NCBI GenBank assembly: GCA_947034895.1
Contig: OX344765.1
Location: forward strand, 48,241,001-48,305,000
Source of the DNA: Rhytidiadelphus loreus
Taxonomy: Eukaryota > Streptophyta > Bryopsida > Hypnales > Hylocomiaceae
Length of the DNA: 64,000 nucleotides
Direction of reading: 5' to 3'
Positions 10,214 through 38,987 of the stretch are shown here, piece by piece. The position numbers were made by a program, and so were the translations under genes. Every line of letters starts with the position of its first letter. Position 1 is the stretch's first letter. The notes under the pieces are model-generated. The model searched no databases, was not told the origin of the DNA, and saw only the letters and a program-made list of their open reading frames with translations.

Positions 10214-10313
10214 CAGGGTTGCCAGGACGCCGAGATGTCCGGACGTCCAGCGTCCGCGTCCGGAATCCCCCGGACGTCCAGTTTTTTTTTTTTACCTAGG
10301 GTAAATTAAAAAG

Positions 10314-10565
10314 TTACCTTGCCCGACGGTTTGTCCGGGACTTTCGACGGCCTGGCCGATCGGACGGCCACTCCCGATCCGATGGCTTGATCGGACGGCC
10401 TAATCGAACGGTCCGATCGGGTATACTCTTCCGACGGTCTGATCGGATGGCCACATCCGATCCAACAGCCAGGTCCGATCCGACGGCCTTATCGGACGGG
10501 CTGATCAGATATCCTCTTCCGACGGTCTGATTGGATGGCCACATCCGATCCGACAGCCTGGTTTA
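10314..10565. promoter_or_regulatory. Left subterminal cluster of TCCGACGGCC-type motifs
   Basis: About fifteen direct and inverted variants of GATCGGACGGCC / TCCGACGGCC occur in 250 bp (for example near 10,372, 10,394, 10,430, 10,477 and 10,520). In hAT elements the transposase binds short repeated subterminal motifs, so this is a likely transposase-binding region. The same motif family recurs at five other places in the element. Confidence 0.75.
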
Positions 10566-12110
10566 ATCAAGCCCTTTTCTTGACAAAAGTATAATGTATG
10601 AGTGAAAAAAATTTAGAAATAAAAAATTTTAATTCTGAAAAATCTTTGTGTTGCCCGGTCTCCCAAGTTTTGAGTTACATGGGCATAACTTTTGTAGAGG
10701 GGTACCGATTGAAAAAAAAATTATATTTTCACAAAGGTAATCCATTTTTCTATCTTCAAAAAAAATTTAAGAAAATCAGGAGACAAATTCAGCCTATAGG
10801 TACCAACCTGAAATCCATTTGTCAACGGAAGGGACGCTTTGTCCTTTAGGGGTTCAAATGAGCTATGAAAAGAAATAGAACCCATTGTTGAACTTCGGTA
10901 TACAATAAGTTTTGTTTAAGGTTCCTATTGACGGTCATGGAAATTATTCTAACAAAAAGAAAAAGAAAAAGGTACAAGGTCTAAATACTAAATAGTGTCG
11001 AAATGCACGATGGTACTATTTTTTTAGGGTTTTATAGAAATGCCATTTTTTTAATTAACAAGGATTTAGGCCCAAAAATTAACCCATTCTTGTACTTTAG
11101 GGAGTACTGAAAGAATCCCCATTTGAACTCATGAAAGTAATTTGACTTCGAAAAAAATTAAAATTCTTAAAAATTCTGTATCGTTCCCAATTGTAGAATT
11201 CAACACATTTTTATTCTAACCATTTCTTTCTTAAGCCCTAAAGGACTGAGCCATTTTCTGGGTCCAAAATCACTGAAAACTGCCATTTCTGCTGCGATCA
11301 TTCACGATGTTGTGAAAATGTTTTCTTTGAAAATGTAACCGTAAGATCTTGAAGTGAACTTGTATGAGAGGGTGTGGTAAACTTTTTGGGAGTTTTCACT
11401 GTACGGATAAAGAGATATTTGCATTCAAAGTCTTTTTTTCTTTTTTTTTCACTATGCCCCAGAATTTCAGATGCCTTTGACCGCCTCATGCTCAATTTTT
11501 TTGCACTACACACCATAAAATTAAAATTTTTTCCTGTAGGTATTGAAGTTGGGCATATGCATACCAATTTTCAAAGAAATCCAACACACCTAACACCTCC
11601 AAAAAAATTTTGCAATGCCACAATGTCCCAAATATTGACAATGCATTTAGTCATCTTTGAATCAGTTTTCCCACCACATACTTTGAGATTTTGAAAATCC
11701 GAATGATGGATACAAAGGCATACTTATATTTGACAAGCAAGAAATTTTTGTTTGGGAAAATTTCAAAATCTGAGATTCCTATGACTTTCTGAAGTTTGAA
11801 GTTGCTTGGACGATGGGGTTTATAAAGCTTAAAATGAAAACAATCTCCACACACCCTTGCTAATTGCCACCTCAGCATTCAACAACAACAAGTAGTGCCC
11901 TTTTCATTCAAGTCATATGTATCTTTTATAGTTTCATGTGACAAAAAATCATAAGCAGTACTTACTCAAATACATCGAACTTTCAAAATGTATAATTATC
12001 ATATTCCACATATATGGTCATACATCTACATTGCATAATTAGGCACTATATAGTGTGCACGCGTACATCCTCATTCTATATTTATTACATACCTCTATAG
12101 TTCTATGCTA
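10566..12110. other. AT-rich non-coding spacer sharing a module with the CACTA elements
   Basis: No gene is supported. Ordered blocks match the CACTA element at 42.9-46.5 kb: ATTTCAGATGCCTTTGACCG here near 11,464 and ATTTCAGATGACTTTGACCG near 44,923; CTGCCATTTCTGCTGCG here near 11,279 and TGCCAATTCTGTTGCG near 44,737. A block ending in TTTGTCC...TTTAGGG (about 10,700-10,850) is shared with 45.3-45.6 and 48.8-49.05 kb. Confidence 0.6.
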
Positions 12111-12130
12111 CTATAAAGTACGTTGAACTA

Positions 12131-13627
12131 CTAATATGAATGGCGGAAGTGCTCATCCGGCACAGGCCAATTGCACCGACCGGAAAAGAAATTGATGATG
12201 TGAGACAAACCGCCACGGTAATTCGAACCTTCACTGCAAGGCCGCTCCATGTATGAGTGAAACATAAGGGCCAAAACGTGGTGACTCAACTTCGTCAGTT
12301 CAGTTGATTCCCGATGCAACTTGTAATATTCTTCAGATATGCAATCCTTGTTGATGCGTTGAGCGAGTTTACAAACCGCATATTCTTCTGATGCACGTGA
12401 TAGATTTGGAATGATTGACCCATCTGCATCTCTTTTGTGCACATATGCAATCTTCGGGTCCACCCACCACCTCTTTCTCAAAGCCTCCTCCATGTCACTT
12501 GCACATGTAAACGTGTACAAAGACTTCATTGGTTCAGAAGCTACGGTAGTCATGCCCCAATCGCAGACTCCAATGTACACGCGTGACTCGTCTTCAGGAA
12601 AGTGAAACATTATGTTGTCTGGAGAGATATCATTGTGAAGATGTCCAGAAATGTGCACCGCATTCATGATGTGCAATAATGCCCATGCGAGTTGCGTGCA
12701 CTTCTTCCTAAATCGTCCGAGATGGTAAGCTTCAATCAACTCTACCTCTGTTGGCCTCGAATAGTGCAACCGAATGGCAATGTTGTCTGGATAATTATTA
12801 TCCAAGTGCATCATGTGCCGTAGTGTTCCGCCATTCCACCAATACGAATACCCTTCATTTGTTGTTCTATGAACTGTAGCAAACCGTATAACTTCAGGAT
12901 GTGGAATCCGCACTGCCATTGACTCGTTCTGGTGTTCCAATCTTGCAAGATGAGGCTGTGTGCGGTGTTGATTGGATAACTTTGCTGCAAACTCCCAAAA
13001 TGTAGCTATCCCTGGACACCTTTCAATTCGAACCCTACGAATTGTTGCATATCCACCCTTCATGGGTTTTTTGGTCTTGAGCGATTACTCGTGCTGTGTC
13101 GGGAAGCGCTATGAGGTGTTGTCTGCCCCGATTCAGTTCAGCCACTCCATCAGTGCTATTCCACCAACCCAAAGATCCTCGTCTGTTACGGCTCTTTGCA
13201 AACGGCTTGCATCGTGCAACAAACAAATCAGCTTTCAGAATGACTTCACGAAAATCCTCATCATTTTCCCGATATTGAGAGCCATACCTTGCTAGCACCA
13301 TTGATGCATTCCACAATGCATCGTGGACCCTATTCTCCAAGAATTTTGGAAAGCCTTTCTTCTCCGTCTCGTAGTGCCATTCCGGAACGCTAAGCGCATT
13401 CATCATCAGTTGCCACATGTCGCCTTGAATTTCTGCGAGCACTCCTCGTTGTACCTAACGTATTTGTTGTGTAGTGACATCGTGGTTTCTGACTCATAGA
13501 AATTGACGATCAACTTGATCAAAAATCTCTTGCATGCATCAGAGTGAATGTCCCTACTTGCCTCATTGTGTGAACCTCCTTCATGCTCCACTTGTTTCCT
13601 CTTTGCAGCCTTCTTTGTTCGTGGCAT
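12131..13627 (-). pseudogene. Protein-kinase-like cargo gene of the giant hAT, with two frameshifts
   Basis: The chosen start, MPRTKKAAKRK at 13,627, gives a basic nuclear-signal-like N-terminus. The C-terminal 310 residues look like a kinase: a glycine-rich loop-like GGYATIRRV, a candidate VAIK lysine in WEFAAKLSN, an H-x-D-x4-N catalytic loop in HNDISPDNIM (about 12,610-12,645), and CDWG in the DFG position (about 12,555). It ends with tandem TAG codons. The middle segment (about 13,050-13,440) reads in a different frame. The frame returns to that of the N-terminus near 13,050 at a run of six A's, so two compensating indels are present, or assembly errors. A GC-rich motif cluster lies just upstream. 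Whether it has kinase activity, and on what, is unknown. Confidence 0.7.
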
Positions 13628-13837
13628 CGTGATGAACTTCTTGTACGAATGAATATTCGCAAATTGAAATGATAATTTCAAGTTCAAGTGAAACTCGAAC
13701 CAAAACTGAAAAAATGGCAATAAGGGGCCCCCCAAATCTCACTCTTGCTTTCCCAAGAAGAGGAACCAATGGGGGCATGAACCACCAAGCTCTTCGCTTC
13801 ACTCTTGCAATATGCAAGGGGGAAAACAAAAGTGAGG

Positions 13838-13994
13838 ATCGGACGGGCCCGTCTGACTCTCTTATACCTTTCCGATGCCCTTTTTCCGACGCACGGTCCA
13901 CGTCGGAAATCCGACGCCCACGACGCGGCCGATAGATCGGACGGCCCCTGCGAGGCGGACGGGCTGCCATGCGACAGATCGGACGGCTCCGATA
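13838..13994. promoter_or_regulatory. TCCGACGGCC-type motif cluster upstream of the kinase-like gene
   Basis: Several variants (TCCGACGCACGG, GATCGGACGGCCCC, GATCGGACGGCTCC) occur 210-370 bp upstream of the kinase-like start on the minus strand. Same motif family as the subterminal clusters. Inferred promoter-proximal element. Confidence 0.65.
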
Positions 13995-15480: not shown

Positions 15481-15525
15481 AACCCATATTGTAAGACAAA
15501 CAATACAATAGTGTTTGATTCGGCT

Positions 15526-16530
15526 TCATTCAGAATCTGAATCCGTGTCATCTCTCTGACTTGGGCCTGTAGGACCACCACCATAAACACCGAGATATGG
15601 TCCTCCGCCATAGTAGTCGGGAACATATCCGCTTTGTCCACCTCCTCGTCTATAATTTGCGGAGGAAGGACCTCCAAAAGTTGGAGGAGGAATTGAATCA
15701 CCGTGGAGTGATCCTCTTTCAGTTGAACCGCCATAATAAGAGCCTCCAACGTTTTGAGAGCCATGTTGGGGGTCATGGCCATAGTGTAAACCATAGGACC
15801 CATGTGGTAGGTCATATGCACCACGGTCACGTTGGTAGAATCCATCATACCCATCTTGTCGACCACGGTCCTCTACGCTTCTACGCATCGCTTCTTGCAT
15901 TTGTTGTTCGTATTCAATGTCTTCTCGATCTTTTTTACGCTCGTGCTCCTCTCCCAATGTCACTGGTGCTGGAGCTCCACCCTCATCCCCGTCACTCGAC
16001 CATTCATCTTCTCCATGTGGCACCGCAACTGCAGAAAATCCAAACTGCCCTCGATTGGACCACTCTGGCTGGCAATCACTTGCAGTAGTCCAGCTAGTAT
16101 AAATCATTGCATCATTCCGATTCAGACTATCCATATGTTTCCCATAAATGGTACACCAATCCACATCTTTGTGGAGTACAATCTCTGCCCAAATCATAGC
16201 CATATTAGAATAATTCATTATATTAGGTTTGGAGTCACGTAAACCCGCTGAACGCGTTACTTCTTCGTAACGGTGAAGAAAGTGTTGGCTCGTACATGTG
16301 GACATTTGTCCTTCACATCGACGAACTTGGCCTTCAGCGCGTTCTCGTAACCACATTTTGGAGAGGTCAGTCATCTTGATGTACTTCTTGCACGTGGTGC
16401 AGTTCCAAACTTTCTTTGGCTCTTCTTCCCATCCATCTTCAGCTACGCAATTAGGGTTTTCCCAGTCAGCCCAATTCATATCTTGAGATTTTCCTTTCTT
16501 ACTCTTACTTGATGGTTTAGGGCGAGACAT
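15526..16530 (-). CDS. Unrecognised cargo protein with the domain shared with the RING gene
   Basis: This uninterrupted 334-residue frame begins MSRPKPSSKSKKGKSQ; the ATG at 16,530 is preferred to one 23 codons upstream because it starts a basic, nuclear-signal-like N-terminus as in the other cargo proteins. It ends in TGA. Residues of about 40-135 are homologous to the N-terminal part of the RING-H2 gene at 19.9 kb: CKKYIKM, a KMW block, SQHFLHRYEEV, NYSNMAMIWAEIVL and VDW align with CKQFVKM, KLW, SHFVHRSDEV, NYSTASMMYAELIL and VNW. Cys and His residues in this block could bind metal. The C-terminal half is low-complexity, Gly/Tyr/Ser-rich with an acidic tail (DDTDSDSE), probably disordered. 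Function unknown. Confidence 0.7.
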   Translation of the reverse strand: MSRPKPSSKSKKGKSQDMNWADWENPNCVAEDGWEEEPKKVWNCTTCKKYIKMTDLSKMWLRERAEGQVRRCEGQMSTCTSQHFLHRYEEVTRSAGLRDSKPNIMNYSNMAMIWAEIVLHKDVDWCTIYGKHMDSLNRNDAMIYTSWTTASDCQPEWSNRGQFGFSAVAVPHGEDEWSSDGDEGGAPAPVTLGEEHERKKDREDIEYEQQMQEAMRRSVEDRGRQDGYDGFYQRDRGAYDLPHGSYGLHYGHDPQHGSQNVGGSYYGGSTERGSLHGDSIPPPTFGGPSSANYRRGGGQSGYVPDYYGGGPYLGVYGGGPTGPSQRDDTDSDSE

Positions 16531-16842
16531 GATAACCTTGATTACAATGAAGATAATTGATGTCCGAATTTTCCCAAAAAATTGCACCAAGTGCACCAAG
16601 TGCTTCTCACTTCAAAATTCAAATGCAAAGGAGTGAAACGGTTTTCTAATTCACAATTCCTCGCATACAAGAAATTATTCAAACCACATCACTTAAAACC
16701 ACCAAGTATCCAAGCACAACCGTTCACACACCAAACCGAAAGGGGCGCGCAGAGCCACAGATTCACATCGGGCACTGGAAAACCCACTTCGGGAGGGAAA
16801 TGGCTGTGGAAAAATGAGGCGTCGGAAACGCTATTTATGGCT

Positions 16843-17056
16843 TCCGACGGCGCTTTAGGGTCCGTCCGAATCGGACGGCCTGTTTTCCGACGCCCCCATC
16901 GTGCGGCCCGAAACCGTCGCACGATGAATCGCACGGTCACCGAGAAAGTGCGGACGCACCGACATGCGGACGAACAGGTCGAACGGCGCGTCGGAAGGTC
17001 GGACGGGGTGTCGGAAAGTCGGATGGGGCGTCAGAAGGGCGGAGGGGCCGTCCGGC
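16843..17056. promoter_or_regulatory. TCCGACGGCC-type motif cluster upstream of the 15.5-16.5 kb gene
   Basis: Variants such as TTCCGACGGCGC, AATCGGACGGCC, GGTCGGACGGGG and GTCGGATGGGG lie 310-530 bp upstream of the minus-strand gene. Same family as the element's subterminal repeats. Confidence 0.65.
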
Positions 17057-17159
17057 GAGGAGAATTTTGGGAAACAAGGAAAGTTTTGCCCCTTTCGAAA
17101 TTGCAGGCTTTGCCTTGCAGCAGGGGCAATGAAGGAGGCAATTCAGCGTACCCTTTTTT

Positions 17160-19115: not shown

Positions 19116-19155
19116 GTAGGGTTTAGGGTTTAGGGTTTAGGATCTAGGGTTTAGC
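19116..19155 (+). repeat. Short interstitial plant-type telomere-like repeat
   Basis: Four to five TTTAGGG units, one disrupted (GATCTAGGG), lie about 700 bp upstream of the RING gene. Short TTTAGGG/AAACCCTA boxes are common in plant promoters, so this need not be a telomere relic. Confidence 0.8.
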
Positions 19156-19327: not shown

Positions 19328-19640
19328 GGAGACGATGGCCTGATCGGAGACCTGAAGACCTAAAATCCATCCGACGGCCTGATCCGACAGCTTGATCCGA
19401 CGGCCACGGCCTGTTCGGTCCGCCTAATCGGTCATAGGCGACTCCGAAACTTAGTCTTCCGACGGCCCCGACGTCTTCGATCCGACGGCAGCGTTCGATC
19501 CGACGGCCTCATCGGACGGCGACGGCCTGTTCAGTCCGCCTGATCGGACGACTAGGTCCAATCCGACGGCCCAAAGTCGGACGGATCGCGGTCCGGAACC
19601 AAACCGGTATTAGGGTTGGTTTCGGACAGCTATATGATCG
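19328..19640. promoter_or_regulatory. TCCGACGGCC-type motif cluster upstream of the RING gene
   Basis: About fifteen motif variants (GATCCGACGGCC, CTTCCGACGGCC, GATCGGACGGGC) lie 220-530 bp upstream of the ATG at 19,857. It is the densest of the internal clusters. Confidence 0.7.
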
Positions 19641-19856
19641 GACGGGCCCTTCATTTCTTTTCACTTCTTCTCTTCAAGCTTGCCAAGTCAGATGTGCTGC
19701 TGTTGCCTCTGGCACTAGTTGCTCTTACTTGGTGGAGAGAAGGGGTCCAACATATTTTATTACAGTGTGACTTTGGCAGATTTAAATTACCTACACATAT
19801 ATTTCAATTGACTGAATTTTTTACTTTGAATTGCTCTTCAATTCAAAGTACCAAGC

Positions 19857-22800
19857 ATGGCCGTGGAAGGTGATGGAAGGGCTATTGGGACAACTTCAAC
19901 ACAACCTCCACCGAAGAAAATTAAAACAAGGGGGGCGGGACATGCGTTGCAGTATGACATTTTAGATGATCAGAACATCAAAGCGGAGCCTGACTGGGAG
20001 AAAGTGGAGGCCGAATATTGGAGCTCTAAAATGTGCAAACAATTTGTCAAAATGTACCACATTGACAAGTTGTGGCCTCGGGATTGCCACGCAGCCCACA
20101 CAAGATATTTCAATTGTAAGCCATGGACTTGCAAGGATAGTCATTTTGTACATCGATCAGACGAGGTGTGGAAGGCCCTCTTCGGCAACAAGGCAAGGAG
20201 TAAAGGATACATAAATTACAGCACAGCATCTATGATGTATGCAGAACTCATATTGGGTCGGAAGGTGAATTGGAGCACGTTTCCAACGACATCGCAATTG
20301 CCGCTGCAACTTCCGAAAAATCAAAAGGATATTCCTGATTTATACAACCATGGGGCACAAACGACTGAATCTAAAATAGTATTCAAAAATACTAGAGCAC
20401 CTACAATGAAGGTTTCACAGGGCGTAGGCAACGCAGTACAGTTGGACCCCACACAACTAGGAGCGGAGGCTACTAATGCCTCTTCGGGAGGTGTATTTCG
20501 AAAGGTCAATTTCAAGGATCCGGAGACTTGTTTACCCACCTCGGTTCATGTACCAATCACGGGTGAGCAAAGCATTGCTCCAAACAAGCACAACCTCGTG
20601 AAAGAAGTTGCCCCCTCTTCCTCGTCGCGAGAAGACATGGATGAAGACAAAGTTGCAAGAGCAAATGCTACAATTGCATGGCTTATAGACAGCGATGCTC
20701 TCGATAGTTTGAAGTACGTTCCTCCAAACGTGGACTCGTCAACGCCGCCTAGTCCAATATTGAGCCCGATCCGTGAAGTTCAACCGTCAGGTCTGTTCGT
20801 AGAGCGACTTCAAAACGTGGCAACGACCTCCAATATTGATGGCGAGGAGATTGTGCGCAAGTATCCGCTCTTGTGCACTTTAACTCCAAGAAGATTGCAA
20901 TATGTGGGTCAAATTCCAAATCCGGAGCATCTTGAAATTATACTTAGGTGCGGAGTTGAGTACCCATCTCAAATGGATGGATCGAGAGAAGGTGAACCCG
21001 TGAACGAGGCCGAGTGCTCTACGGCAATCGAAAACAAACTTGGGCTTCACGATTTTGTGACATCCGCTCAAGCAATAACATGTTCTGTTGAAGCTGTAGT
21101 GAAAATTGCCTCGTTGGCTATGGAATTGGCCAAGAATTTATCCACGTTATCGCATCCACTATTGAAGGGTGGATTGGCTTTTCACAAGTTTGCTAGTGGA
21201 GCGCTAACACTTCTTGATGAGAAGTACAACTACTTGAAGACAATCGTGGAGCTGGAGTAGAAGAATGACGAGTGGAGTAAAAAGTATGGAAGGGTCGTTC
21301 AAAATTGTGAGTCATTGGGAAGGCAATTGGTGGCGTCAAGGAGGAAGTATAGCGACAAATATTTGAAGGAACGAAATGAAGAAAAGGGCCTCTCTACAAT
21401 GGAGACCCAACTACCGAGGTCGCAAAAAACTCAAGAAAGCGATCAACTCTCTCTTCCATTTGAGAAGGCCAAAGCAGTGGAGGAGCTTGAGACCAGAAAG
21501 GTGGATGAGGTTCCAACTTGGAGCGAGTTGAATCGAAGATTGAATGAGGTAAACCAAGAAAATGCCTTTCTTCAATCGAGGTTGGACCGGATGAAACAAG
21601 TGGAGAACATGGATGAATGTCTACCGACGAGCGGATCGGAGTCTCGGTGGTTGACATGGATACAACAACTTCAAGACAAACCGTCTTTAGCATCTCGGGC
21701 AATGATCGGGATTCGCACCCTTGCAATGAAGTCGGATGAAGATTGCAATGTCGTTGAGTCTACTTTGAAGAAATTCAAAAGTGCGGTCGAGCAACATTCT
21801 TGGGGGTCTATGCCAATGACATGTTGGGGAGACATGGATGCCATGTATGAGCGGTTGAACCACGCCAAGAAGGAATCGCTAGCCCACAATCGCGACATCA
21901 ATTGGACTTTTGAAGTAGAGGAAGGATGGACTCCTTACACAACGCTTTCAGCACACATCAAGAAGAACGAGAAGATAGTTGTGCATGGTTCTAATCCAAA
22001 CAATGAAATGTTGAAGGGTCATTGTAGCATTTGCCAAGGTCCTTTTGGGCCTGAAGGAGCCTTCACCATGGGCCATTGTTGCCACGTTTTTCATATCAAA
22101 TGCGTTGTGCAAGCATCTCTTTTTCGATTCGTTTGTGCCGAGTGCCATTCTCCTTTGAGTCCGAGGTTCTACGAGATGTTTGGCATCTTGGAAGGTATGC
22201 CCCCCGGCCACGAATACAATAGATGGACTCTTCCACTTGACCAAGGGCCATACAAATTCCAGAATTATTCGCATTGGGGAAAACCCCTCATATGGGATCC
22301 AAAGGAAGAGAAGCATGAATTGTATAATGCATCCATGCAACCGGTGGATTCCTTCATGTGGATGACCCAAAATATGGAAGTGGAGTTGCGGGCTCGTGCC
22401 AATGATGATGGCGAGGCTCGTGAATTGTTTTGTCGCAGTATGGGAGGGCATTGGAGCATGCAACACCATAAATTTTTCCGGTTTCCCGAAAAAGAAGTAC
22501 AGAAAGGGCCAAATGGCAATTGGATAGAGGTGGAGCATCCTCTTGGCTTCAGTGAACAGTACAAGGCATACAATCACGTTCCTATAGGCAGGGCACTGTT
22601 CTTATCTAAGCTGGAAGAAGCTGCATCAATTCGTGTTCAGGTGGAAACGGATGGAGAATCAAACAAAGGGGATTCGTTCGTGGAGGTGGCAGGGGCATTT
22701 GATAGGAGGGTGGCCGACATCATAGGTCAATGGAGGGCGTTCCTATTGGAAGGAGTCACCGAAAGGTTTAGGGTAAACAACCCTAGTGATGACCATATGG

Positions 22801-23111
22801 TGAATGTGCTGGTAAATCGAGTGGACGCTGCTCTGAGAGCCTTAAAGGCGATGGATGTGGATTTGACTCCGAAGCGCAAACAGAAGCGGAAGATTGAAGA
22901 TGACAATGACTATTCTCCGGAAACAATACGACAATTTGTCGTTGTTGACAGGGCAACCAAATCAAAATGGTTCTTAAGCTCAACAAGCCCTGGGGGAATT
23001 TCTCGTCACGAAAGTCCAAGGATTGTCGCTCAAGTGGCGCAACGCAATCCAGAGGGGTCCTCTGGTCAGTCTGGTGGTTCGGGAGATGGCAACAATGATA
23101 GAATTAAATAG
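19857..23111 (+). pseudogene. RING-H2 cargo gene with one in-frame TAG
   Basis: From the ATG at 19,857 (MAVEGDGRAIG, then a basic PPPKKIKTRG) a single frame runs about 1,084 codons to TAG at 23,109-23,111, interrupted only by TAG at 21,258-21,260. Residues of about 40-140 form the domain shared with the 15.5-16.5 kb protein. The region around the TAG is predicted coiled coil (Glu/Lys/Arg-rich, about residues 450-590). A RING-H2 motif follows at about residues 722-766 (22,020-22,160): CSIC, then GHCCHVFHIKC and CAEC, giving the C-x2-C, C-x-H-x2-H-x2-C, C-x2-C pattern of E3 ubiquitin ligases. A Ser/Gly-rich tail follows. A GC-rich motif cluster lies upstream. One nonsense codon may mean a recent loss, readthrough or a sequencing error. 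E3 activity is inferred from the motif only. Confidence 0.72.
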
Positions 23112-23557
23112 AAATGGACCAATAGGTCTATTGCAATAGAAGAAATAGAACTCTATACTCGATAGACTTTTGTTTTAATGTCACGAGGTGAAAATAGTAG
23201 TAAATAATTGTAATCACGGCATGTCTTGTTTTGCCTTTAATATCTACGTATATATGTCTTTTTATATATACATATATATATATATATATTTATTTATTTA
23301 TTTATTTATATTTCAATGTTCATGATATGTATGGATCTTTCAATACATGCTAGTTTGTTGAATCGGTTGGTCAAATGTCGCTTTTTTTTTCTTTCGCTAT
23401 GATATAATGATTTGTTCAAAGAATATGTAGTATTTTTTCCATTGTAACATTATTTCATTGCAAAAATATGAACTCCAAAATTTTTTGGCACAAAAGGCTC
23501 TAATCAATTCCTACAAACTTGTTAGTATTGCTTTGCACAACTAGTACTTTACACCAC
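23112..23557. other. 3' flank of the RING gene with an AT microsatellite
   Basis: AT-rich sequence with a (TA)n/(TTTA)n run at about 23,261-23,312. No gene is seen. It ends at the ACCAC duplication that flanks the LTR-like unit. Confidence 0.6.
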
Positions 23558-24799: not shown

Positions 24800-24814
24800 T
24801 TCTCCCTCCTTGCT
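24800..24814. repeat. L1 target-site duplication, left copy
   Basis: TTCTCCCTCCTTGCT here is repeated exactly at 31,747-31,761. It marks both ends of the L1 insertion. Confidence 0.92.
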
Positions 24815-24877
24815 TGTGAAACCCAAGAAGGGCGCGGGACGGGGGGCGAGGGCCCCCTTCAAATTAATACGAAAGAA

Positions 24878-27800: not shown

Positions 27801-29178
27801 ACAGTACCGTTTCCCTGGCCTCGATGACCTCCGCTGTCTCTGGCTCCGCTGTGTATAAATTGCGGTAAAATTCCGTGATAGCCTCAGCTTTGGGCCCTTG
27901 CTCCGTCAGAATGTCTGTCCCTACTTTAAGCTGCGGTATGTGTAACCGTTTCCTCACATCTTTAAACACCAGGAAAAATTCCTTCGAGCACCTGTCGCCG
28001 TTTTTCAGCCATCTAGCCGACACCGCGTGGTACTGTGTTTCTAAAACGTCCATCGTGATCTCGTGTAGCGAAGTTCGGGCTAGGTCCAGCCTTTCCGAAG
28101 CCTCCTCGTCCCACGGGTTCCACTGCAATATGGCTTCTTCTGTTTTTATGCTTTCTAAGGCTGCGTGCTCCGCTTTGTATTTGGCTGTACGCCGTTCATT
28201 GGCGATTTTCCTAGCCTCCGCTAGTACTCTTTTCTATGCGTCCGTAACCCACTGCATCCATGAGTCACCTTCCGCTGGACCTGACGCCTGTTGCCACGCT
28301 TTTGCTAGTCTGTCCTTGGCGTCCTGGCTTTGCAACAGCTCCAGTCTGATCGATGTGCGCTTCGTTTTTTTCCTCACGCTGGGTAGCAGTCGCAAGGAGA
28401 CCGGGGCGTGGTCTGAAATTTTTGAGTGTGGGTGGGTGCAAAAAGTCCCACCTTGATTCTGCAGTCCCACCGACAGGTATAGCCTATCTATGCGTGCCCC
28501 CCTTTTCTGCACGCCTTTTCTGTTATTATCCCATGTAAGCCGTTTATCTGATTCCTTTCTAACCGAATCCGAGTGCCATGCATCCTGCAGGCCGTAATGG
28601 TTGGTGAGTCGCGTCCAAGCCGCTCTCTCTCTGTGGTTAGGTTGTGTGCAGAGCCTTGAGTTCCCGCATCTATCCTCATTAGCTTCTACCATGTTTAGAT
28701 CACCTCCTAGGATGTAGGCATCCCCTTCTATGTCTTTTTCCACAATTTTCTGCCACAGCGTGCACCGGTCCTGGGATGTCCCTGGCGCATATATATTTAT
28801 AATTGTGAGCCATTTCTGCGTTTCTGTGAGCAGCGTCACGTATTGCGCGTGACCTTCCTGTATCAGCCCTTGTGCTGTGACCTGAGCTGCGAGTCCTTTT
28901 GTTAACAGTAGGGCTGTGCCCGCGCGCCATCTCCCTGCTTCACCCTCGCCTTTCAGCGCCGGGTTCCAGGCTCTGAAGCCATTAGCATAGGGTAGACTCC
29001 GGCTCCGGTATTTGCATCTGTCCGTATCCATCCAGTGCTCCTGCAGCATGATGATTTGTGGCTGATAAGACATTCTTTCGAATAATCTCCTTATGTGCAC
29101 CTGTTTTTGGGACCCTCGGGTACCCACCCCTGCGCCCCGTATATTTAGGGTAGCTACTGTGATTCCTTTCGCTATCAT
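24878..29178 (-). pseudogene. L1 ORF2: endonuclease, reverse transcriptase, zf-RVT
   Basis: ATG at 29,178 overlaps the ORF1 stop. The N-terminal endonuclease shows TLNIRGAG, LQEHW, INIYAPG, GGDLNMVE, RIDRLYL and SDHAPV. The reverse transcriptase shows NYRPITLLSSFYKVVAKIL, QTGYVQGRCILDN, LLLDFEKAYDRI, VRQGCPLAPFLF, the catalytic YADD and GVRYLGPLIG. A zinc finger, CSMCDHPRETTQHLFWEC, lies near the C-terminus. Breaks: TAG 28,234-28,236; a frameshift near 27,250 in an AAAAGGGG run; TAA 26,165-26,167; TAA 25,817-25,819; TAG 25,052-25,054. Coding similarity continues across each break. The last stop is TAA at 24,878-24,880. ORF2 normally nicks DNA and copies the LINE RNA at the nick. Confidence 0.9.
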
Positions 29179-31253
29179 TCTTCTGTTTGCTCCGGCGAGC
29201 CTGCCATTTCCACGTCCCTTGTTTCCTGTTCTTCAATCTGAGCTTGACCTGAATTGGCTTGTTCCGCTACCTGCATCCCTGGCCACCAGTCCGCTTGGAT
29301 CAATTCCGGCTCAGCTAGTTCGGTCCAGATTTGCAGCAGGAGATTGGCTTTCGTCCAGCCTCCTTTTGATTCTAATTTTGATACATTTTTTTCCTCTATC
29401 CAATGCTGATCTACCCCCTTGGTGCATTTCGCCTTCTCGGTAACCTTTATGACTGCTAGCACTGTGAGCTCGTGTTTCCCTTTTGATCCATCCCATCTCG
29501 CGGACCATTCTACGGAGTTCCAGTGCTGGATCCTTGGGGGTTTCCTTACCGTGACTCTGAGATGCTCCCGAAGCAATTCTAACACTCTCCCTTTCCAGCG
29601 CTCCAGGTCATCCCCACTGTCAAATTCCAGAGGTATCGGACTGCTGAGGCCTTGTGTTTCCCCTTTTGTGTCCAGTAGGAGCTGTCGTTCGCCTTTAACC
29701 TCTTTGAACAGTAGGGGCCAGACCGATATGGACCTGTCCCCTTTGCTCGGGTGCCTTTGTTCTTCCATCTGGAACGTTTCTAGGAGTTCGTTCGGGTTCC
29801 ACTGTGCCCACCACCTGCTCGATGGCTTGACTGTAGATTTCCGGGTGGTTTCCTCCCAGAACTTCCCTTGTAGGGGATCTTCTGCTAAGAAATCATCCTC
29901 TCCTGATTCGGTATGGCTTCCTCCCTCCGAGGCTTCCTTACCTACGCATTCCATTGATATCTTTTTTTTGACGCTCTTCTCCCCCCCTTCCGCTGCTCTG
30001 CGATCAGTTATGGGTGTCCGCGCCGGCGATTTTAGCATCTCCGAGAAGGTTTCTTTGCCGCTCCTTTCTCTGTTTTTGCTGTCCGTAGCCGAGGCCGTCA
30101 GCGTTGGGAACTCCTGCTCCGATAGCAGCTGTATCTCCCCATCCTGCTTTTCCGTTGTTTCTGTCTGTTTCTTCTGATCCGGCTGTCCATCTTCCTTGCG
30201 CCCCTACTTACTGTCTTTCTTGCGATTCTCCCCTCCGTTTCGCTTCTTGCGCTTGCGTTTAACCTCTATGAATCCATCGTTCTCCTCTGTCTGCATTTTC
30301 TGAGATGCGGCCGTTGCCTCCGGTCTCTGCTCCAGTTTCTTGCTTCTCGGGCAGTCATGCAGCAGGTGGCCAAAGTTACGGCAGCGGTTATACTGGTTCG
30401 GTAGTCCTGAGTAGCTGACCACTTGGTCCACGTACTGTACCTCCTCCGACTCGTGTCGCAGCTTGGGTATGCTTACGTAACCTGGTAGCTTCTTTATGTC
30501 CTCTACTATGACGTTGACTATCGGTCCTGCAGGCCTTTTACAGGCCGTATCAGTCTAATCTACTGATATCACTTCCCCTATCAAACCGGCTATTTTCCTA
30601 AGCCAGTCCTGTGTTTGCAGTACCGGCTCCAGATCCGGGAACTGTACCCTTATAGCCGTGCCTATTTTTAAGTTGGGGTTCGGGGTTTCAGCTGAAAATC
30701 CTTCTACCCATGGGTAGAATCTAATCGTCCTTTCCCCCCATTCGAGAATTCCCATTTGCAGACAGCTTTCAGCCATTCTACTCGTGGAAAACTCTAGTCT
30801 GAAAAAACCCCTTGAAAGCAGCTGCAAGTTACTGAAAAAGTCTTTCCTTTTCCCCTCTAGGAATTTAAGCAAGGGTAAGTGCCCTGAGACGGGGCCGAAA
30901 ACCTTACCCAAGACTATCCGTTGGTACAGTTCCTTGCTCTCGCTCCTCAGGTTCTACAGTTCCGTTGCCGAAAGCTGCACCTTAGGTCTCCAGGTTAGAT
31001 CGATCTTGGGCTGCGTCTGCGCCTTGGGCGCGTGCGGCTCCTTCTCGGGCGAGCTACGTCGCTCCTGCTGCTCCGCCACCTTGTGAAGAGCTTCTTTAGA
31101 CGGGTCAGTTGAGACCCATCCTTCGTCCTCCAGCTCCGGTAAGCTTTGCGCCTGGTCCAGTTCCATGTTCGTTTTTTGTGCGGTACCGATCTTCTCTTCT
31201 TGGCTGTGTCTTTGCAATTTGACGGCGACCTAGGATCGGTGTTGGCGATGCAT
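29175..31253 (-). pseudogene. L1 ORF1 (DUF4283-like, zinc knuckle) with in-frame TAG codons
   Basis: The likely ATG is at 31,253 (MHRQHRS). The frame reaches TGA at 29,175-29,177 with no frameshift, but TAG occurs at 31,230-31,232, 30,954-30,956, 30,555-30,557 and 30,204-30,206. Residues from RGFFRLEF to GEVISVD resemble the DUF4283 RNA-binding region of plant L1 ORF1. The knuckle at about 30,390 reads YNRCRNFGHLLHDC, where Tyr replaces the expected first Cys. A basic KRKRKKRN tract follows, then a C-terminal domain of about 290 residues. ORF1 proteins coat LINE RNA. The TAG at 30,555 aligns with a Gln codon in the copy at 2.9-3.65 kb. Confidence 0.85.
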
Positions 31254-31794
31254 GGTCTTGGGTCTAAGCGCTATGCTATAGCAATCTAAACAGCTTTCTA
31301 ATCACACTAGTACCCTAAGCACTCTTCCTTCCCGTCTAAACCCTAAGCTGTCTTGGGTTTGAGGCGATCCAGAGGCCCTAGCAGTTCCCTTTCTTTTTCC
31401 TATTCTTCACTCGTTCCTTAGCTCTGCTTTCTCTCTCCTTAGGACTGTCGGAGAGGCTCCCCGATCCGTGGAATGCACTGGAATTGGCCCAGCGGTGCCA
31501 CCGCGGCTGCCGAAACCCTAACAGGGTTTTACTGAAACTGTCCGGGGACTGTTCAATACTGCTCCGATTCCTTAGATTCCACTCTTGATCAGCTCGCCTC
31601 TGCTCTCGTCCCTTTGGGTGCGATTGCTATGCTAAAAAATCTCGCTCAAAACTGAAATCGGATTGAAAATCTGCCTTGAAACGGCCAAAAACGAAGTAAC
31701 CCTAATTTCGGGTCTCTAGGAGCTCTCCAACAGTGTAACGTGAGAATTCTCCCTCCTTGCTAACTCTCTTTTTTAGCTTAAGTCAGTCCTTTTG

Positions 31795-32400
31795 GGGGGT
31801 TTAGACCCAGACCTGAAAACTGAGACCCCTCTCCAGCGACTGAACCACCCCGCAGCTAAGCCCACCCGGCGACTGAACCCACCCCACAGCTGAGCCCACC
31901 CGGCGACTGAACCCACCCCGCAACTGTGCGACCCACCCTGCGACTGAACCCAACCCCGCAATTGTGTTCCCCTCCCCCGACTGAGCCCCTTCCCCACGAC
32001 TGGGACCCCTAACCCGGCGACTGAACCACTCCGCAGCTGAGACCCACCCAGCGATTGAACCCACCCCGCAATTGAGCCCCTTACCCGGCGACTGAGCCCT
32101 TCCCTGTGACTGGACCCTTCCCCGTGACCGGACCCACCCCGCAGTTGAGACCCACCCGGCGACTGAGCCCTCTCCCTGCAGCCAAACCCTCTTCCCGACT
32201 GAACCCACCCCGCAGCTGAGCCCCTTACCCGGCGACTGAACCCACTCGGCGACTGAGACCCACCTCGCAGCTGAGACCCATCCGGCGACTGAACCCACCC
32301 CGCAGCTGAGACCCATCCGGCGACTGAACCCACCCCGCAGCTAGACCCTCACCCGGCGACTGAACCCTTCCCCGTGACTAGACCCACCCCACGGTTGAGA
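31795..32400. repeat. GC-rich minisatellite inside LTR copy 1
   Basis: About 600 bp of degenerate 16-34-bp units built from GGCGACTGAACCCACC and CCGCAGCTGAGACCCACC. Long open frames across it on the minus strand (Gly/Ser/Trp-rich repeats) are products of the repeat, not genes. Confidence 0.9.
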
Positions 32401-33154
32401 CCCCTTTTGGAGGGGGTTTTTAGGAACTATCAAAGCACAATGGCTACTACTAAATTGATGGTAGATAGGCTCTCCAAGACTTGAGTGACTGTTTTTTGGA
32501 CGCTAAACTTTGAATAGTTCCCAAATGTTTTGGAAACTAAATTTTAGAACTGGCCACGAGGGGGGTGCAAAGCTTCGCCGTTAATTTGGTTTTAACACCA
32601 AATTTAGGACTGCCACTCCCTGGAGGCTCAAAGCTCCACCGTTTGGTGAATGTTTAACACACAATTTAGGATAGACTTGAACACGGAAAGGTGAGGTTTG
32701 GTTGCCCCGGAGGGGAACTACTCCACTCTTTTCCAACACAACGAAAAGACGTGGCAATGCAAGTGAGAGACTTGGTTAGTAACGTAAGTAACGCGTGGTT
32801 AGTAAAAAGGAGGTTAGTATACCATGGACAACGTAAGACTAGAGGCCCCCCAAAGCGGCATCGCCAAGGTACGGTGGAGGGTGGCTCTAGGGTTAGTAAG
32901 GGATGCACAAGAAGGACAATTGGATATACTCGGGTAGAAGTAAGGCCCTCAAAGGACACACAAAAGTTTACAAAGAACCAAAGGGGAAGGACCTTCCACG
33001 GACCTTCAACACTACAATGAAATAACAACAAAGAAATGAGCAGGGTGCTCCAAAAACACCGTGGGGAGCTTTGGCAAATACCAAAATATAAAAAGAGGTC
33101 GGACCCACGGACCCAAAACAAGCATTGGGGGTGTTTTGGGAGAGAGAAGGGCCC

Positions 33155-33163
33155 CCTTTTATA
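33155..33163 (-). promoter_or_regulatory. TATA box of LTR copy 1
   Basis: TATAAAAGG on the minus strand sits in a block well conserved among all three copies, followed by CCC-rich and CCAAAACACCCCC sequence. Likely core promoter of the LTR. Confidence 0.6.
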
Positions 33164-34439
33164 GGTTTCCAAGGGCCCACTCCCCCCCTCGACGAGTAAC
33201 CTCATCCATCCGGATTTTCATCCAAATTTGAGATTTTCACCTAATTTTGGGTTTTACTCTGGCCCTAACTTCTAACTTTTGGAGTTTAGCTCGGAATTGC
33301 AAATGGATTGCGCCAATGGCTTCAGAATGCCATTTTTAGCCTGAAGGATCCCCTACCCCCTATTTCTATCACAAAAACCCATCGGAAACTAGCACCAACT
33401 GGGGCCAATTAAAAGGGTAAAAACCTAACTTTTGGGGTTTACCTCTTTTGGCTTGGGTAACTAGCTATGGTTGTTGGTGAGGCTCTAGGGATTAAGAAAA
33501 GACTCCTTGGTGTCATCGTTCCGACTTCGTACGCTCCCGGGACGCCAGTCAACCCCGCAAAGATCTTGCCGTAATTATTAATTGGGGGGATGTTGTCAGT
33601 TTCGGCTGCTTCCCGCTATTGGAACACCATGAAATTTGTTGGGGCGCGTTATTAACATAAAAGATGCTAGTCTAATTTTTAGTGAGATTTTACCGCGGCC
33701 TGGGTATTTTCCATGAATTTCCCCACGTGGCCTTTGGCAGTTGACTGCTCGGAAAAAGACCCTTTGGAGATCAGAAAAAACCGAGACTTTTTTGGGGAAC
33801 CTCTCATGGAGTCTCCCAAGCCACGTGCCAAGTCTTGGGCTATTCTGGCACACAGTCGGTGGCGAGGTGAAAACTGACTTCGGTTGAATCACCGGCAGTC
33901 AGGGAATCTTTCACACGTGAGGGAATCTTGGCGAATGGATTTTGCCGTGGACACCCCGACATGTTCCAGATCCGATAACACTATCCGGCAGCCATGGATT
34001 CCTCCATGCGGCCTGTCTGGGACAAGTAACACCAACAAGCTAACAATTTGGATTCCTAATGTTTCATCGGTGGAATGGGGAAACTAGAAACTATCTTTGG
34101 AGATTTACGTGGGGACCTCCCTAACTCTCCTAAGACTAATTTAGCCTATCATGGTCACATGCACTAGGTTTTGGGCTATTTTGGGTAAGTTCCCAGTAGC
34201 CCTCTTGTTTTCCACTAATTATGGGTTCTAACCTATTTACAAGTGGGTTTTATGGGTAATCTATGGATAAAAGGCTATTTATGACCAAATGCTATATTGG
34301 TACGTGACATACCTATTTTGGTTCTACACTCTTTAGGGGGCTTTTTGTAGTACTTTATGCCTTAATTTGTAATAAACTAAAAAAAAGAAAACAATGAGTC
34401 CCAAGTGACGAATTTGGGGCTCACAACCACTCGCATGCT

Positions 34440-34525
34440 TGAAGGTATTAATCAGAGCCGGGATTTGAACCCGCGACCTCCCCGATTGGAAGAAGGCAAG
34501 TCCAAATGTTTGGATAAGCCTTGGA
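34440..34525 (-). other. tRNA-like tract with a B-box
   Basis: The reverse strand contains GGTCGCGGGTTCAAATCC, a good polymerase III B-box and T-arm. I find no convincing A-box or full cloverleaf. Likely a tRNA-derived remnant between the LTR insertion and the transposase promoter. Confidence 0.3.
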
Positions 34526-34597
34526 CACTTGTGTTGAATGTGTGAAACAGTTCTATTTGAAACTGAACTACGGGAAGTTCCGAATCCGCATAAAAAG

Positions 34598-34760
34598 ATC
34601 GGATGGGCTGATCCGACGGCCAATTCGGACGGCCTGGTCAGATCGGACGGCTTGTTCGGACGACTTGTTCCGACGGCCTATTCGACGGCCTGTTCCAACG
34701 AGCTAGCCCGATCCGACGAAATGTTCGGACGGGATGGTCAAATCGGACGGGCAATTCTAG
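34598..34760. promoter_or_regulatory. TCCGACGGCC-type motif cluster upstream of the transposase
   Basis: About ten variants (GATCCGACGGCC, AATTCGGACGGCC, GATCGGACGGCT, TTCCGACGGCC) lie 330-490 bp upstream of the transposase ATG. Confidence 0.7.
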
Positions 34761-35086
34761 GGAGAATGAGTCCGTTGGTACTGTTTTTAAAATTCATTTT
34801 TTTGAATAACGGTTAGCGCCACCTGTATTCAGCTGCAAAGTATAAGTAGAAGAAACAAGGCGTATGAAGGCACTCCAAATCCACTGAACACTACGATTTC
34901 CAAGGGCTAGGAGCTGCAATTTATTTTGTGTCCCTTGCTTGGTAATGCATCGTTTGGTAGAAGGGGGGCCTTGAATTTCAAGGTGTTGTGTACGACTCTA
35001 AACCCAATTTTAAACATTGGTTCACTTGTGTTTACATTTACAAAAACTTGCGAATTTGAAGAAGTTCAAGTTTGGAACTTGTGACC

Positions 35087-38000
35087 ATGAGCAAGGATTT
35101 TGCTTCTTGGTATGTTGTCCCGTCGGCGGGTAAAATACAATGCAAGGCTTGCAACAACGTGTTTACAAGGAAAACGAGCCGTATGTTGAGTCACTTAGGA
35201 TATGAATCGATTGCCGGTTCTCGTGATAGGGGAGTGAGTTTGTGTCCCAAATTGTCATCGGAAACTCGAAGTCTATTTCTTCGATGCAATGGGGCATTTC
35301 CACGAAGACCTGTTTGCGGAAATGTGGATGTCAACAACTTGCCGATGGTTGAAAGTGATATGTCAGATGGGAGGGGCATACCACGTTCTACGCAAGAAGA
35401 TTCTTGTACAATACCGGAAGAAGTCGTTGGAGGGGGGTCCGAAGTAACTCCAAGTATGCAAACATGTACTCGTGTTGACATTCGCAGGGCCTCAAGCAGT
35501 AGGCCTCCAATACAAAGTAGGCTTTTGGATGGCTTTCAAGAAACAAAAAAAACAAAATTTGAATGCAGTGTGGGCCAATTTCTTCTATGCGGCAAATATA
35601 CCATTTTCAGTGGCCCGAAATGTAGCTTTCAGAGAAGCGGTGAAAAAACCCTCCGAGTATGGTACGGCCTACACTCCGCCATCATATCATGATCTACGGC
35701 ATAAATTGCTTGATCAAGCCAAGGCAGATGTCGTGGAGAAGGTGCATAGAAGGACCGAAGACAGCGTCAGGAAGTTTGGAGCAACATTGTCCATTGATGG
35801 ATGGAGCTCAGTTACAAACCGTCCACTGATCAATGCCATGCTTGTATCTTCAGCGGGTGAGCAATTCCTTGGATCGGTGGATACTAGTGGGGTGGAAAAG
35901 ACAGCACAATATTTGGCCTCAATTTTAGAAAAATTCATAGAGCAGGTGGGTCCTACGAATGTGGTGCAAGTGAGCGCAGACAATGCTCCAGTGAATCCGG
36001 CAGCATGGAATTTGGTGACGAACAAATATCCACACATTTTTTTTCAAGGATGCGTGGTGCATGCCTTGAATTTGTTGCTCAAAGATTGGAGAAAGGAGAA
36101 ATGGATTGAAGAGTCGGTAAAGAGAGCCCAAACCGTAGTGAATTTCTTCAAGAAAAGACACATGCCACTTACTATATTTCGGAAGTATGAGACAAAGTAC
36201 AGTTTGTTGAAGCCAGTGGAAACAAGGTTTGCCTCTGTGTTTATCATGATTGATCGTTTGTTGGAAGTCAAAAGAGCATTGCAACAAAGTGTAGTGGATC
36301 CACAGTGGGTGGCATATGTGAATACACTGAACGACAATGGCAAAGCCAAATCTCGCACGAAGTCTCGTGATGTGAAGAGGTTCATTCTAGAGGAGCATTA
36401 TTGGGACCGGTGGACAAATTTGCGGGAATTGGTGGGCCCCGTTGTATATGGTCTACGTGATTTGGATGCAAAGATGCCATGCATGGGAAAGGTGTTGCAT
36501 ATTATGAGGAATTTAGAGAAACATGTCCTTAGCCTAGAAGGGCATCCTTTTTGTTTGGCAACAAACCTCGCCGAACCATTGGAGCAATCCTTTTTCAAAC
36601 GCCGTGGAATGGGGGAGACAGATTTACATTATGCAAGAGCTCTTTTGAATCCATACCTTCTGCATGATAAGGAACTAGCCGACGACCAAGATGCAATGGA
36701 CGCATGCAAGCGTGTTCTAATGAAAATTTGCAAACAAGGAGAGTACGCCTCAGTGATAAAAGAATTTGTAGCCTTCCGCCATAGGGAACCTCCGTTTCAC
36801 AACATGTTAAACTCGGATGAGCAACAATTGTTGGCGGCTCGGCGCATGCTTGGTGGGATTTTGAAGGTGCATGTGGGAAGCTCATTGCTCCAATAGCCAA
36901 GCGAATTTTGGCACAACCGGTATCCTCGTCTTCATGTGAACGAAATTGGAGTAGTTATTCTTTTGTTCACAACAAATCTCGGAACAAGTTGACAACGCAG
37001 AGGGCGGCAGACTTGGTGTATATGTACACCAATTCCAAGGTCTTGGCAGCATCAAAGGAAAAGGATGAGAAGAAGTGGTACAATGACAACGTGGATTCGG
37101 AAGATTCAGAGGGGTTTATCTCGGAAGACGAGGAGGATGGTGGGTCAGTTGGGCCTCTATTGGATGACGAAGATGCCATGAATTACGACGGGCACAATTT
37201 TGATGATGAAATGTTCGATAGCCCAAGTCGGCCCAATGAAGATCTTCGAGCCAATGATCGAGACATCTATGACTTTCCATTGGATGAGGATAATGATGGG
37301 TATGATGAAGATGTACCTTCCATAGCTAGATTTGTGGATGGAAGTGGGTTCATGAGTAGCGAAAAAGTTCTATCGGAAAAAGAAGACGCTTATGTAGAGG
37401 CTAATGAGAGAACAATTCCCCATGATGGGACTCAAAGAATGGATGAAGATCTTTTTCCACTTGAGTCTCCGTTTAGAGGAGTGTTGTGAGCGGAAGAAAA
37501 TGACAAACACATCGGCAAGGGAGGACGTGAGCCTTGGGAGGTGAATGTCAAAATGAACGTTGGCAACACGAGTGTTGAGTCAACCATTGTATTGGCAAGT
37601 GCGAACAGTGGTCACCCAAGTATTCCAAACCCTAAGGCAAATGAAGCGGAGAAGAATGTTGATCTATATGTGGTGGGGTTTAGAAGTCCAATTTCGTACA
37701 TCAATGGAGAAGCCAAGAAAGAACTCATGCAAGATTTTGAAGTACCACCATCTAGCATCCCTCCACGTGCACAATTGAAAACCCCTAGTCAAATTTCGGA
37801 TGGCGTTGGGAGCATAGGGCTTGGAAAACAGATTGCAAATATTTCAAAAGAAAGGCGGCCTAGTCAAGGTATTTTATCATCCACGGACGATGACAAAGAT
37901 GAGACATTGGCTTCAATGTTCATTCGGCATTCTCGTAATGCACCACCACGACGGCCCCCAACAATGTCAGTGCCTAAACCACAATCTTCAATCTCACCGA

Positions 38001-38419
38001 AGATAATCATTCATGGAGGCAGTGGAGGGCCCTCAACAATAAAATTAGAGGGCGGGGGATCACCTAGAGCCAATAAGAAGAGAGTCATGCAACCTTTTGC
38101 AATATCCCCGTTGAAAAAAACAAGAACCAGTGGAAACCTTCTTGATGCACGTCCACATGTTTCAAAGAGGAAAATGAAAAGTGTTATTGGCATTAAGGAA
38201 CAAAATGGGAAATCCTTATTATGAGTAAAAGAAGAACTCAAAAAGGACAAACGAAGAAGAAGCCTTTCATCCACGCAAGTACAAGAGGGAAGAACGACAT
38301 GTCTAGGCTCTTCATCAGATGATATGGAAGACACATCCGACGACGAAGACGCAAGATTGGGAAATGGGTGTAAGAGTAGTGGGGCAGAGGTGAAAGGAGA
38401 TTTTGATTACAATCCTTAA
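35087..38419 (+). pseudogene. hAT transposase (BED finger, DUF659, dimerisation) with a long C-terminal extension
   Basis: The chosen start is MSKDFASWYVV at 35,087. A BED-type finger (CKACNNVFTRKTSRMLSHL) comes first. DUF659-type catalytic-core blocks follow: LSIDGWSSV and VQVSADNAP with the expected Asp residues, and CVVHALNLLLKD. The dimerisation region has AKRILAQPVSSSSCERNWS. Unusually, about 450 codons continue past it: an acidic stretch (SEDEEDGG), then Pro/Ser-rich and basic sequence to TAA at 38,417. Breaks: frameshifts near 35,540 (an A run) and 36,895, and TGA at 37,487-37,489 and 38,222-38,224. It lies at the right end of the giant hAT and would bind its ends and cut it out. As read it is inactive. 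Confidence 0.88.
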
Positions 38420-38796
38420 AAATAGAAAGGACATAGGCTTAAATGTTCATGTGCTCATATTACATAAAGCACAGATTGTCGTACTGACAATTGATGGTTA
38501 GAGACTTTGATTGTAATACTCCTAAACTTATTGATGGTGGTAATACCATTATTTTTGAAGGGGGCACTTAACCAAAGATGATTTCAATCCAAAATATCAA
38601 TTGATTGTGTCATTTGTATGTTGCTTTTCTACAATGAAGCATGATATATTGCAAGATGATGAAAAAAATTAAAAATTAGGCTTCATACTTGTGGTAATTG
38701 AAATGCTTTTGAAAGGCTAGAGGATCATGATGATATGATTGTTAATCCTGTTTCAACCAAGGTTGCAATTCAGGAGGACAGCTGTGACTATGTCAG
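38420..38796. other. 3' region between transposase and right subterminal repeats
   Basis: AT-rich, non-coding. Nothing further recognised. Confidence 0.5.
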
Positions 38797-38987
38797 AATT
38801 CCGACGGCCCGAGGCAGCGTCGGAATTCCGACAACCGAGGCAGCGTCCGAATTCCAACGCCTGAATTTACCCCGAGGTAAATCGGACGGACGGCTCCGTT
38901 TTACCCAGCGTCCCCCGCGTCCGCCACGTCTGGACGTCCGCTTTTTGGACGCGATTTTGGGCTGGACACTCCAATTCGTCAACCCTG
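38797..38987. promoter_or_regulatory. Right subterminal region of the giant hAT
   Basis: It contains ATTCCGACGGCCC, ATTCCGACAACC and AATCGGACGGACGG, then GTCCGCCACGTCTGGACGTCC, mirroring GGACGTCCAGCGTCCGCG at the left end. It ends CAACCCTG at 38,980-38,987. Confidence 0.75.

Follow-up and report, generated by a model that had tools for sequence, protein, structure and literature searches.

We analyzed a 64,000-nucleotide stretch of contig OX344765.1 from the moss Rhytidiadelphus loreus (the window, below), in which positions 10214–38987 are occupied by a transposon of the hAT superfamily. This element contains genes for a hAT transposase, a kinase-like protein, a small protein with a conserved cysteine/histidine (Cys/His) pattern, and a RING-H2 protein. 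A repeat of ∼13 bp (approximately ATCSGACGGCCTG) fills the left end of the element, recurs upstream of all four genes, and is weakly represented at the right end. The recurrence of an end repeat before each of the four genes is the new observation of this work.

Ends and boundaries of the element

The ends of the element are CAGGGTTG (10214–10221, + strand) and CAACCCTG (38980–38987, − strand), terminal inverted repeats that are paired at 8 of 8 positions, are of the CAGGG type found in the hAT superfamily, and diverge from base 9 inward. Immediately outside them are two copies of CTTCAAAC (10206–10213 and 38988–38995, no strand), a target duplication that has 0 mismatches between the flanks and the 8-bp length of the hAT superfamily. 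The first-pass annotation of this DNA had reported exact ends and an 8-bp duplication, and all of these are present where it had placed them. Because CAGGGTTG alone is common in the window (4 matches versus 2.1 expected), pairs of hAT-type ends were tested across the window. Among 28,119 candidate end pairs, the 10214–38987 pair was the only one without a mismatch in the ends and the duplication; the runner-up (6279–6685) had 1 mismatch in the ends and 1 in the duplication. A chance pairing of ends was rejected because there was a single flawless pair among the 28,119. The ends and the target duplication support the conclusion that the region from 10214 to 38987 is a single hAT insertion.

The element is interrupted by a retroelement that is foreign to it (23558–34425, − strand; 10,868 bp), which has TG...CA ends and is flanked on both sides by a 5-bp duplication, ACCAC (23553–23557 and 34426–34430, no strand). 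The minus strand of this block contains endonuclease and reverse-transcriptase open reading frames at ∼25.05–31.2 kb, as well as a weak zinc-knuckle match. We rejected the block from 23.5 to 34.4 kb as hAT cargo because it has its own ends and its own duplication, which show that the retroelement is a later insertion into the hAT element. Removal of the nested block and its duplication from the 28,774-bp region leaves 17,901 bp, in agreement with the size of ∼17.9 kb that had been proposed from the sequence alone.

The hAT element has received at least one later insertion (23558–34425), which is also in keeping with a history in which the kinase, small-protein, and RING blocks were inserted independently into an element that encoded only a transposase. 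We consider this history highly improbable. The retroelement has clear ends and a duplication, whereas no comparable boundaries were found around the gene blocks in a search that covered hAT-type ends only, and the repeat arrays tie these blocks to the left end. In addition, no internal hAT-type end pair with an 8-bp duplication was detected within the element under the pair definition of the window-wide test, so the separate elements with their own ends that had been named as evidence against a single transposon were not seen under that definition. The proposal of one hAT insertion with four genes is thus borne out by its ends, its duplication, the clean boundary of the nested block, and the arrays common to the left end and the four genes.

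Several other features of the window were recorded. The nested retroelement contains a GC-rich minisatellite at 31.8–32.4 kb (31836–32403) with units of ∼17–18 bp. A second, similar copy of the retroelement (55208–59517, 4,310 bp) has TG...CA ends and its own duplication, GAGAT, and sits within another repeat that spans ∼53932–55207 and resumes at 59525–60139. Just outside the nested element, the segment from 34440 to 34535 resembles by eye the 3′ half of a tRNA; ARAGORN predicted no tRNA gene in the window, and no Rfam family reached its gathering score there. The runner-up end pair delimits a possible 407-bp non-autonomous DNA element (6279–6685) with near-matching ends, CAAGG.../...CCTTG, and flanks that share an 8-bp repeat except for 1 mismatch, although this pair may be a chance product of the 28,119 pairs tested. 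A short TAGGGTT array inside the hAT element (19117–19154) is presumably a plant telomere-type repeat; together with kinase relatives from the moss Ceratodon (see below), it points to a moss or a closely related plant as the probable host.

The transposase gene and three further genes

The first-pass annotation had claimed four genes rather than one, and all four were located, with the kinase and RING Pfam matches of the window copies below cut-off. The transposase gene (35087–37489, + strand) encodes a BED finger (21.4 bits versus a cut-off of 20.6, E 2.6e-4), a DUF659 domain (126.3 bits versus 34.7, E 1e-36), and a hAT dimerization domain (Dimer_Tnp_hAT, 34.9 bits versus 21.4, E 1.3e-8), all of which clear their Pfam cut-offs. 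These matches are spread over three pieces of a broken gene, whose reading frame contains two frame changes and then ends with TGA at 37487–37489. Candidate acidic-triad motifs (SIDGWSS, SADNAP, and CERNWSS) were located, and they may correspond to the catalytic triad of other hAT transposases. Comparison of the transposase with solved structures returned one match, with an E of 1. Directly after the TGA, an open frame of 244 codons continues in the same frame (37490–38224), which may represent a C-terminal extension that has since been lost or a segment translated by read-through. A scan of 10 gene pieces gave no Pfam match to a tyrosine recombinase, the captain protein of Starships.

The kinase-like gene (12131–13627, − strand) has ∼498 codons and a start codon at 13627. 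It contains two frame changes, placed by the overlaps of open reading frames near 13.43 and 13.06 kb, which cancel one another, as the relative P0007 (491 amino acids) aligns from its first to its last residue at 13627–12134. The window copy matches Pkinase with an E of 1.9e-6, below the Pfam cut-off. Among ∼5.8 billion proteins, 81 relatives of the kinase-like protein were found; the top match has 66% identity over 98%, and the highest identity is 77% over 76%. Two relatives are named as proteins of the moss Ceratodon purpureus (P0033, 54% identity, and the more distant P0086, 33% identity), and P0086 represents 95 member sequences. The two Ceratodon kinase genes are M758_3G001500 and M758_UG149200. 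Another relative, P0008, carries the label of a genome bin from Bacilli, which is probably due to contamination. Weak local matches of the kinase relatives to bacterial kinase-bearing proteins in NCBIfam were far below the cut-offs.

In an alignment of 30 rows (29 of the 81 relatives plus the window copy), Lys-35 and Glu-54 are retained in 29 of 29 lettered rows, and H150, N151, D152, N157, D175, W176, and G177 are retained in 30 of 30. In these rows, the K, E, D, N, and D residues of the protein kinase core are conserved, with HND in place of HRD and DWG in place of DFG if, as we assume, these positions are equivalent to those of other kinases. Upstream of the kinase start, the leader is matched at 13790–13710 by the N-terminal extension of P0009 (E 1e-5), in a frame other than that of the kinase, and at 13798–13709 by that of P0027 (E 2e-4); the extension of P0017 had no match in this leader. 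The untranslated leader from 13709 to 13798 itself therefore seems to be conserved, as far as these matches indicate.

The gene for the small Cys/His protein (15526–16530, − strand; 334 amino acids from its ATG) has an intact reading frame. The same protein collection contained 38 relatives of this protein and 6 of the RING protein. In the small-protein family, C71, C74, C106, and H110 are retained in 30 of 30 rows (29 of the 38 relatives plus the window copy). The model of the Cys/His domain is confident, with a mean predicted local distance difference test score (pLDDT) of 84.2, and a Foldseek comparison with the PDB gave it no match at an E of 0.001 or better.

The RING-H2 gene (19857–23111, + strand) is interrupted by one in-frame TAG at 21258–21260. 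Its two open reading frames were rejected as separate genes because P0003 covers both halves in one match. The RING match of the window copy lies at ∼22.02–22.15 kb (zf-RING_11, E 9.9e-5) and is below the cut-off, as is that of P0003. Two other relatives, P0001 and P0005, clear the zf-RING_2 cut-off (31.8 and 28.8 versus 27.3; E 1.7e-7 for P0001), and through them a RING-H2 zinc-binding pattern can be assigned to the family, as predicted from these profile matches. The small-protein relatives P0088, P0089, and P0091 match not only the small gene but also the region of the RING gene that encodes the N terminus (within 19911–20282; E 3e-16 to 5e-18, 31–36% identity), where the window copy keeps 3 of the 4 Cys/His positions and has Ser at the first. 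These matches confirm the paralogy of two accessory genes that had been suggested previously.

None of the 220 window matches made by 125 relatives falls outside the element (E up to 1e-3). No relatives turned up in viral contigs, which were scanned with the RING protein, a transposase piece, and the kinase, small-protein, and RING alignments, or in genome contigs of bacteria and archaea, for which the kinase and RING alignments served as queries. This outcome would be expected of an element from plants.

These gene families bear on whether the hAT element took up host kinase, RING, and small genes once, as Pack-type or ToxhAT-like cargo. Such a one-off capture would fit with kinase and RING being common host domains, with the single complete copy of the element that was seen, and with relatives that have no longest-contig size in common. 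We nevertheless regard it as rather unlikely. The three extra genes belong to their own divergent families, whose Pfam matches fall short of the cut-offs or lie close to them, and have relatives elsewhere, which speaks against the single trapping of host genes that had been raised beforehand as an objection and has not been seen so far. Two of these genes share a domain, all of them have the left-end repeat upstream, and the 95 member sequences behind the Ceratodon protein P0086 look like amplification and not like a single host gene.

A repeat shared by the left end and the four genes

The left subterminal array (10342–10560, + strand) consists of the 13-bp repeat and includes an 88-bp tandem duplication. 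Further arrays, all on the + strand, lie upstream of the kinase gene (13838–13990), the small gene (16842–17056), the RING gene (19330–19649), and the transposase gene (34598–34754), with a weak right subterminal array at 38799–38942. Each gene has one array, which is always on the upstream side, ∼0.2–0.5 kb from the start codon.

Several counts were used to assess these arrays. The 13-bp pattern, which was derived from the GC-rich tracts of the element themselves, has 53 matches with up to 3 mismatches in the window, 48 of them in the element, compared with 10.0 expected and a maximum of 18 in 100 shuffles. A score matrix was built from 11 left-end sites chosen by a pattern that had been drawn after several tracts were seen; its background and its thresholds of 9 and 13 bits were chosen by us, the latter once the hits had been listed, and the borders of the arrays were drawn by eye, which makes this test partly circular. 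Outside the training stretch, the matrix gave 63 hits of at least 9 bits in the window; at 13.0 bits or more, 23 hits remained inside the element, and a single one, at 59732, lay elsewhere. The arrays upstream of the kinase, small, RING, and transposase genes contain 6, 10, 13, and 9 hits at 9 bits, respectively, versus shuffle means of 0.4–1.0, and 0 of 300 shuffles reached any of these counts. The small-gene array is the weakest of the four, with 1 of its 10 hits reaching 13 bits and 4 of the 10 on the minus strand. At the right end there were 3 hits, a number reached by 4 of 300 shuffles.

The least biased test used exact words from the left tract (10294–10580), with no pattern drawn beforehand. 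An initial pattern-free attempt caught on a poly-T run at the left end and detected no array, and the analysis was begun again behind the poly-T; a second motif search yielded no motif within its limits. The 10-mers of the left tract occur 93 more times in the window, 63 times in the remaining five arrays, which total 1,252 bp (10, 4, 29, 19, and 1 occurrences), 9 times in the rest of the hAT element, 3 times in the nested block, and 18 times outside the element; the right-end array thus has one exact 10-mer in common with the left end. For 8-mers, the arrays account for 164 of 548 occurrences, and when the window is divided into 200-bp bins, the five with the most occurrences are those of the four gene arrays. 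Seven 7-mers of the CGGACGG type are common to all six GC-rich tracts of the element, a count that is circular if taken alone, as these tracts were chosen after looking. Based on the above results, support is good for all four gene arrays, although lowest for that of the small gene, and the right-end array is doubtful.

The repeats have a nearly uniform polarity, with 46 of the 48 pattern matches in the element on the + strand, as are all 63 of the array 10-mers and the 23 strong matrix hits. This orientation, together with the presence of a separate array for each gene that is similar to the array at the left end, is what would be expected of a composite in which related single-gene elements, each with its own array, came to lie next to one another and the block is now mobilized by its outermost hAT ends alone. 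The arrays would then be relics of several subterminal regions instead of promoters. A composite origin is unlikely in our estimation, as there is no internal hAT-type end pair with an 8-bp duplication under the definition given above, and as every gene has a single array that is on the upstream side in all four cases.

The presence of the repeat before all four genes argues for one co-regulated unit and not for random cargo. The first-pass annotation had called the extra genes cargo; they do sit within the hAT element, but the shared arrays suggest that they are parts of its own machinery, so that the word may be wrong.

Proposed regulation and comparison with known transposons

We favor the interpretation, to which we assign a probability of roughly two in three, that the element is a multi-gene and originally autonomous hAT transposon, inserted once, in which the transposase and the accessory genes are under common control through repeats of the type found at its end. 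Beyond the arrays themselves, we infer the mechanism as follows. During excision and insertion, the transposase would bind the arrays at the ends, much as the Ac transposase binds its subterminal repeats; it is by this analogy that a BED-bearing transposase should bind the end array. The transposase or a companion, for which the two proteins that share a domain (small Cys/His and RING) are candidates, may also bind the arrays before the genes, which would tie expression of all four genes to the level of transposase. Reuse of the repeat before all four genes suggests a feedback in which the transposase, or one of the two Cys/His proteins, would determine how strongly the element as a whole is expressed. 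Acting after translation, the kinase and the RING-H2 protein would be accessory factors, most likely with the kinase phosphorylating and the RING-H2 protein ubiquitinating their substrate, which could be the transposase or else a factor of the host for silencing or the cell cycle, although these particular targets are guesses.

A more specific version of this proposal, which we hold tentatively and at somewhat less than even odds, is that of a new kind of plant DNA transposon, a self-regulated moss hAT element whose four genes form one regulon under the control of the repeat that fills its end. Transposition itself would then involve phosphorylation and ubiquitination, and the Cys/His domain would be a new DNA-binding domain. 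A hAT element with its own kinase and RING-type genes and with its end repeat reused before every gene would show that cut-and-paste transposons can evolve multi-gene regulation like that of viruses, would allow a direct test of how the level of transposase is controlled in plants, and would provide a home for three orphan protein families in public protein data.

Several observations weigh against a co-regulated, multi-gene transposon. The right-end array is weak, and the repeats face the + strand even though the kinase and small genes are on the minus strand, which is unlike a plain promoter signal. Three of the four genes (transposase, kinase-like, and RING) are damaged, possibly from sequencing error. 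If the genes were always neighbors, some overlap in longest-contig sizes could be expected, yet the kinase (80/81), small-protein (37/38), and RING (6/6) relatives have no longest-contig size in common. As the protein lists are incomplete, this absence is a weak argument against tight linkage; the relatives on contigs of at least 4.4 kb number 19 for the kinase, 4 for the small protein, and 2 for the RING protein. Unlike the two kinase relatives, no small or RING relative is named as a Ceratodon protein. One copy of the element was seen in full, which makes it a strong single case whose gene families, good evidence for which exists elsewhere, may travel together.

The flanks also give less help than had been thought. 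The first-pass annotation had described an interrupted long interspersed nuclear element (LINE) at the insertion site. Two pieces of the left flank match successive parts of a reverse-transcriptase profile, below cut-off (E 0.0017 and 0.064), whereas pieces of the right flank gave no meaningful Pfam match, and the flanks, when joined at the duplication, share in one frame an open stretch of only 22 codons across the joint, with a stop on either side, a length that chance could give. An interrupted LINE fits these matches but is weakly supported by them, less so than that annotation had assumed.

hAT elements are usually one-gene transposons of a few kilobases, and several are used as genetic tools. 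By title or abstract opening, no report of a hAT element with this gene set was found in the open-licence literature, a weak negative, and the main text of a review on giant transposons of eukaryotes does not contain the word hAT (PMC6431247). As described in the parts of the source drawn on here, Ac is 4.6 kb in size, with one 3.8-kb transcript and one transposase, which binds repeated hexamers (AAACGG) cooperatively within 200 bp of the Ac ends (PMC3260210). The present element is like Ac/Ds of maize in having 8-bp duplications and short terminal inverted repeats; multiple copies of a short subterminal repeat, a further feature of Ac/Ds (PMC3260210), are strongly represented here at the left end and weakly at the right. 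The Ac/Ds family within hAT is characterized by 11-bp Ac ends and AAACGG subterminal repeats, and the present analysis covered the 8-bp ends and the 13-bp repeat. Unlike Ac/Ds, it is 17.9 kb long and has four genes, and its repeat is different, longer, and also found before every gene.

ToxhAT of fungi is a 14-kb hAT-type element with a non-transposase gene, according to the sections considered of its description (PMC9594970). Like the present element, and as far as those sections go, it is a large hAT-type element carrying a gene besides the transposase, but it is fungal, and the gene it carries is that of the effector ToxA. To our knowledge, ToxhAT has neither a kinase, RING, and Cys/His gene set nor shared arrays.

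MuDR and En/Spm encode a transposase plus an element-encoded helper, and they and PIF/Harbinger belong to transposase superfamilies, with duplication lengths, other than those of hAT. The present element is like all three in combining a transposase with element-encoded help but unlike them in having three putative helpers instead of one. We know of no kinase or RING helper in any of these systems. For PIF/Harbinger, the requirement is for two element-encoded proteins, as given in the part of the source consulted (PMC2836001). Starships of fungi are, like the element described here, giant eukaryotic DNA elements that carry cargo; as characterized in the portions of the literature considered, they are defined by a tyrosine recombinase and reach up to ∼700 kb, whereas the R. 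loreus element has a hAT transposase and hAT ends.

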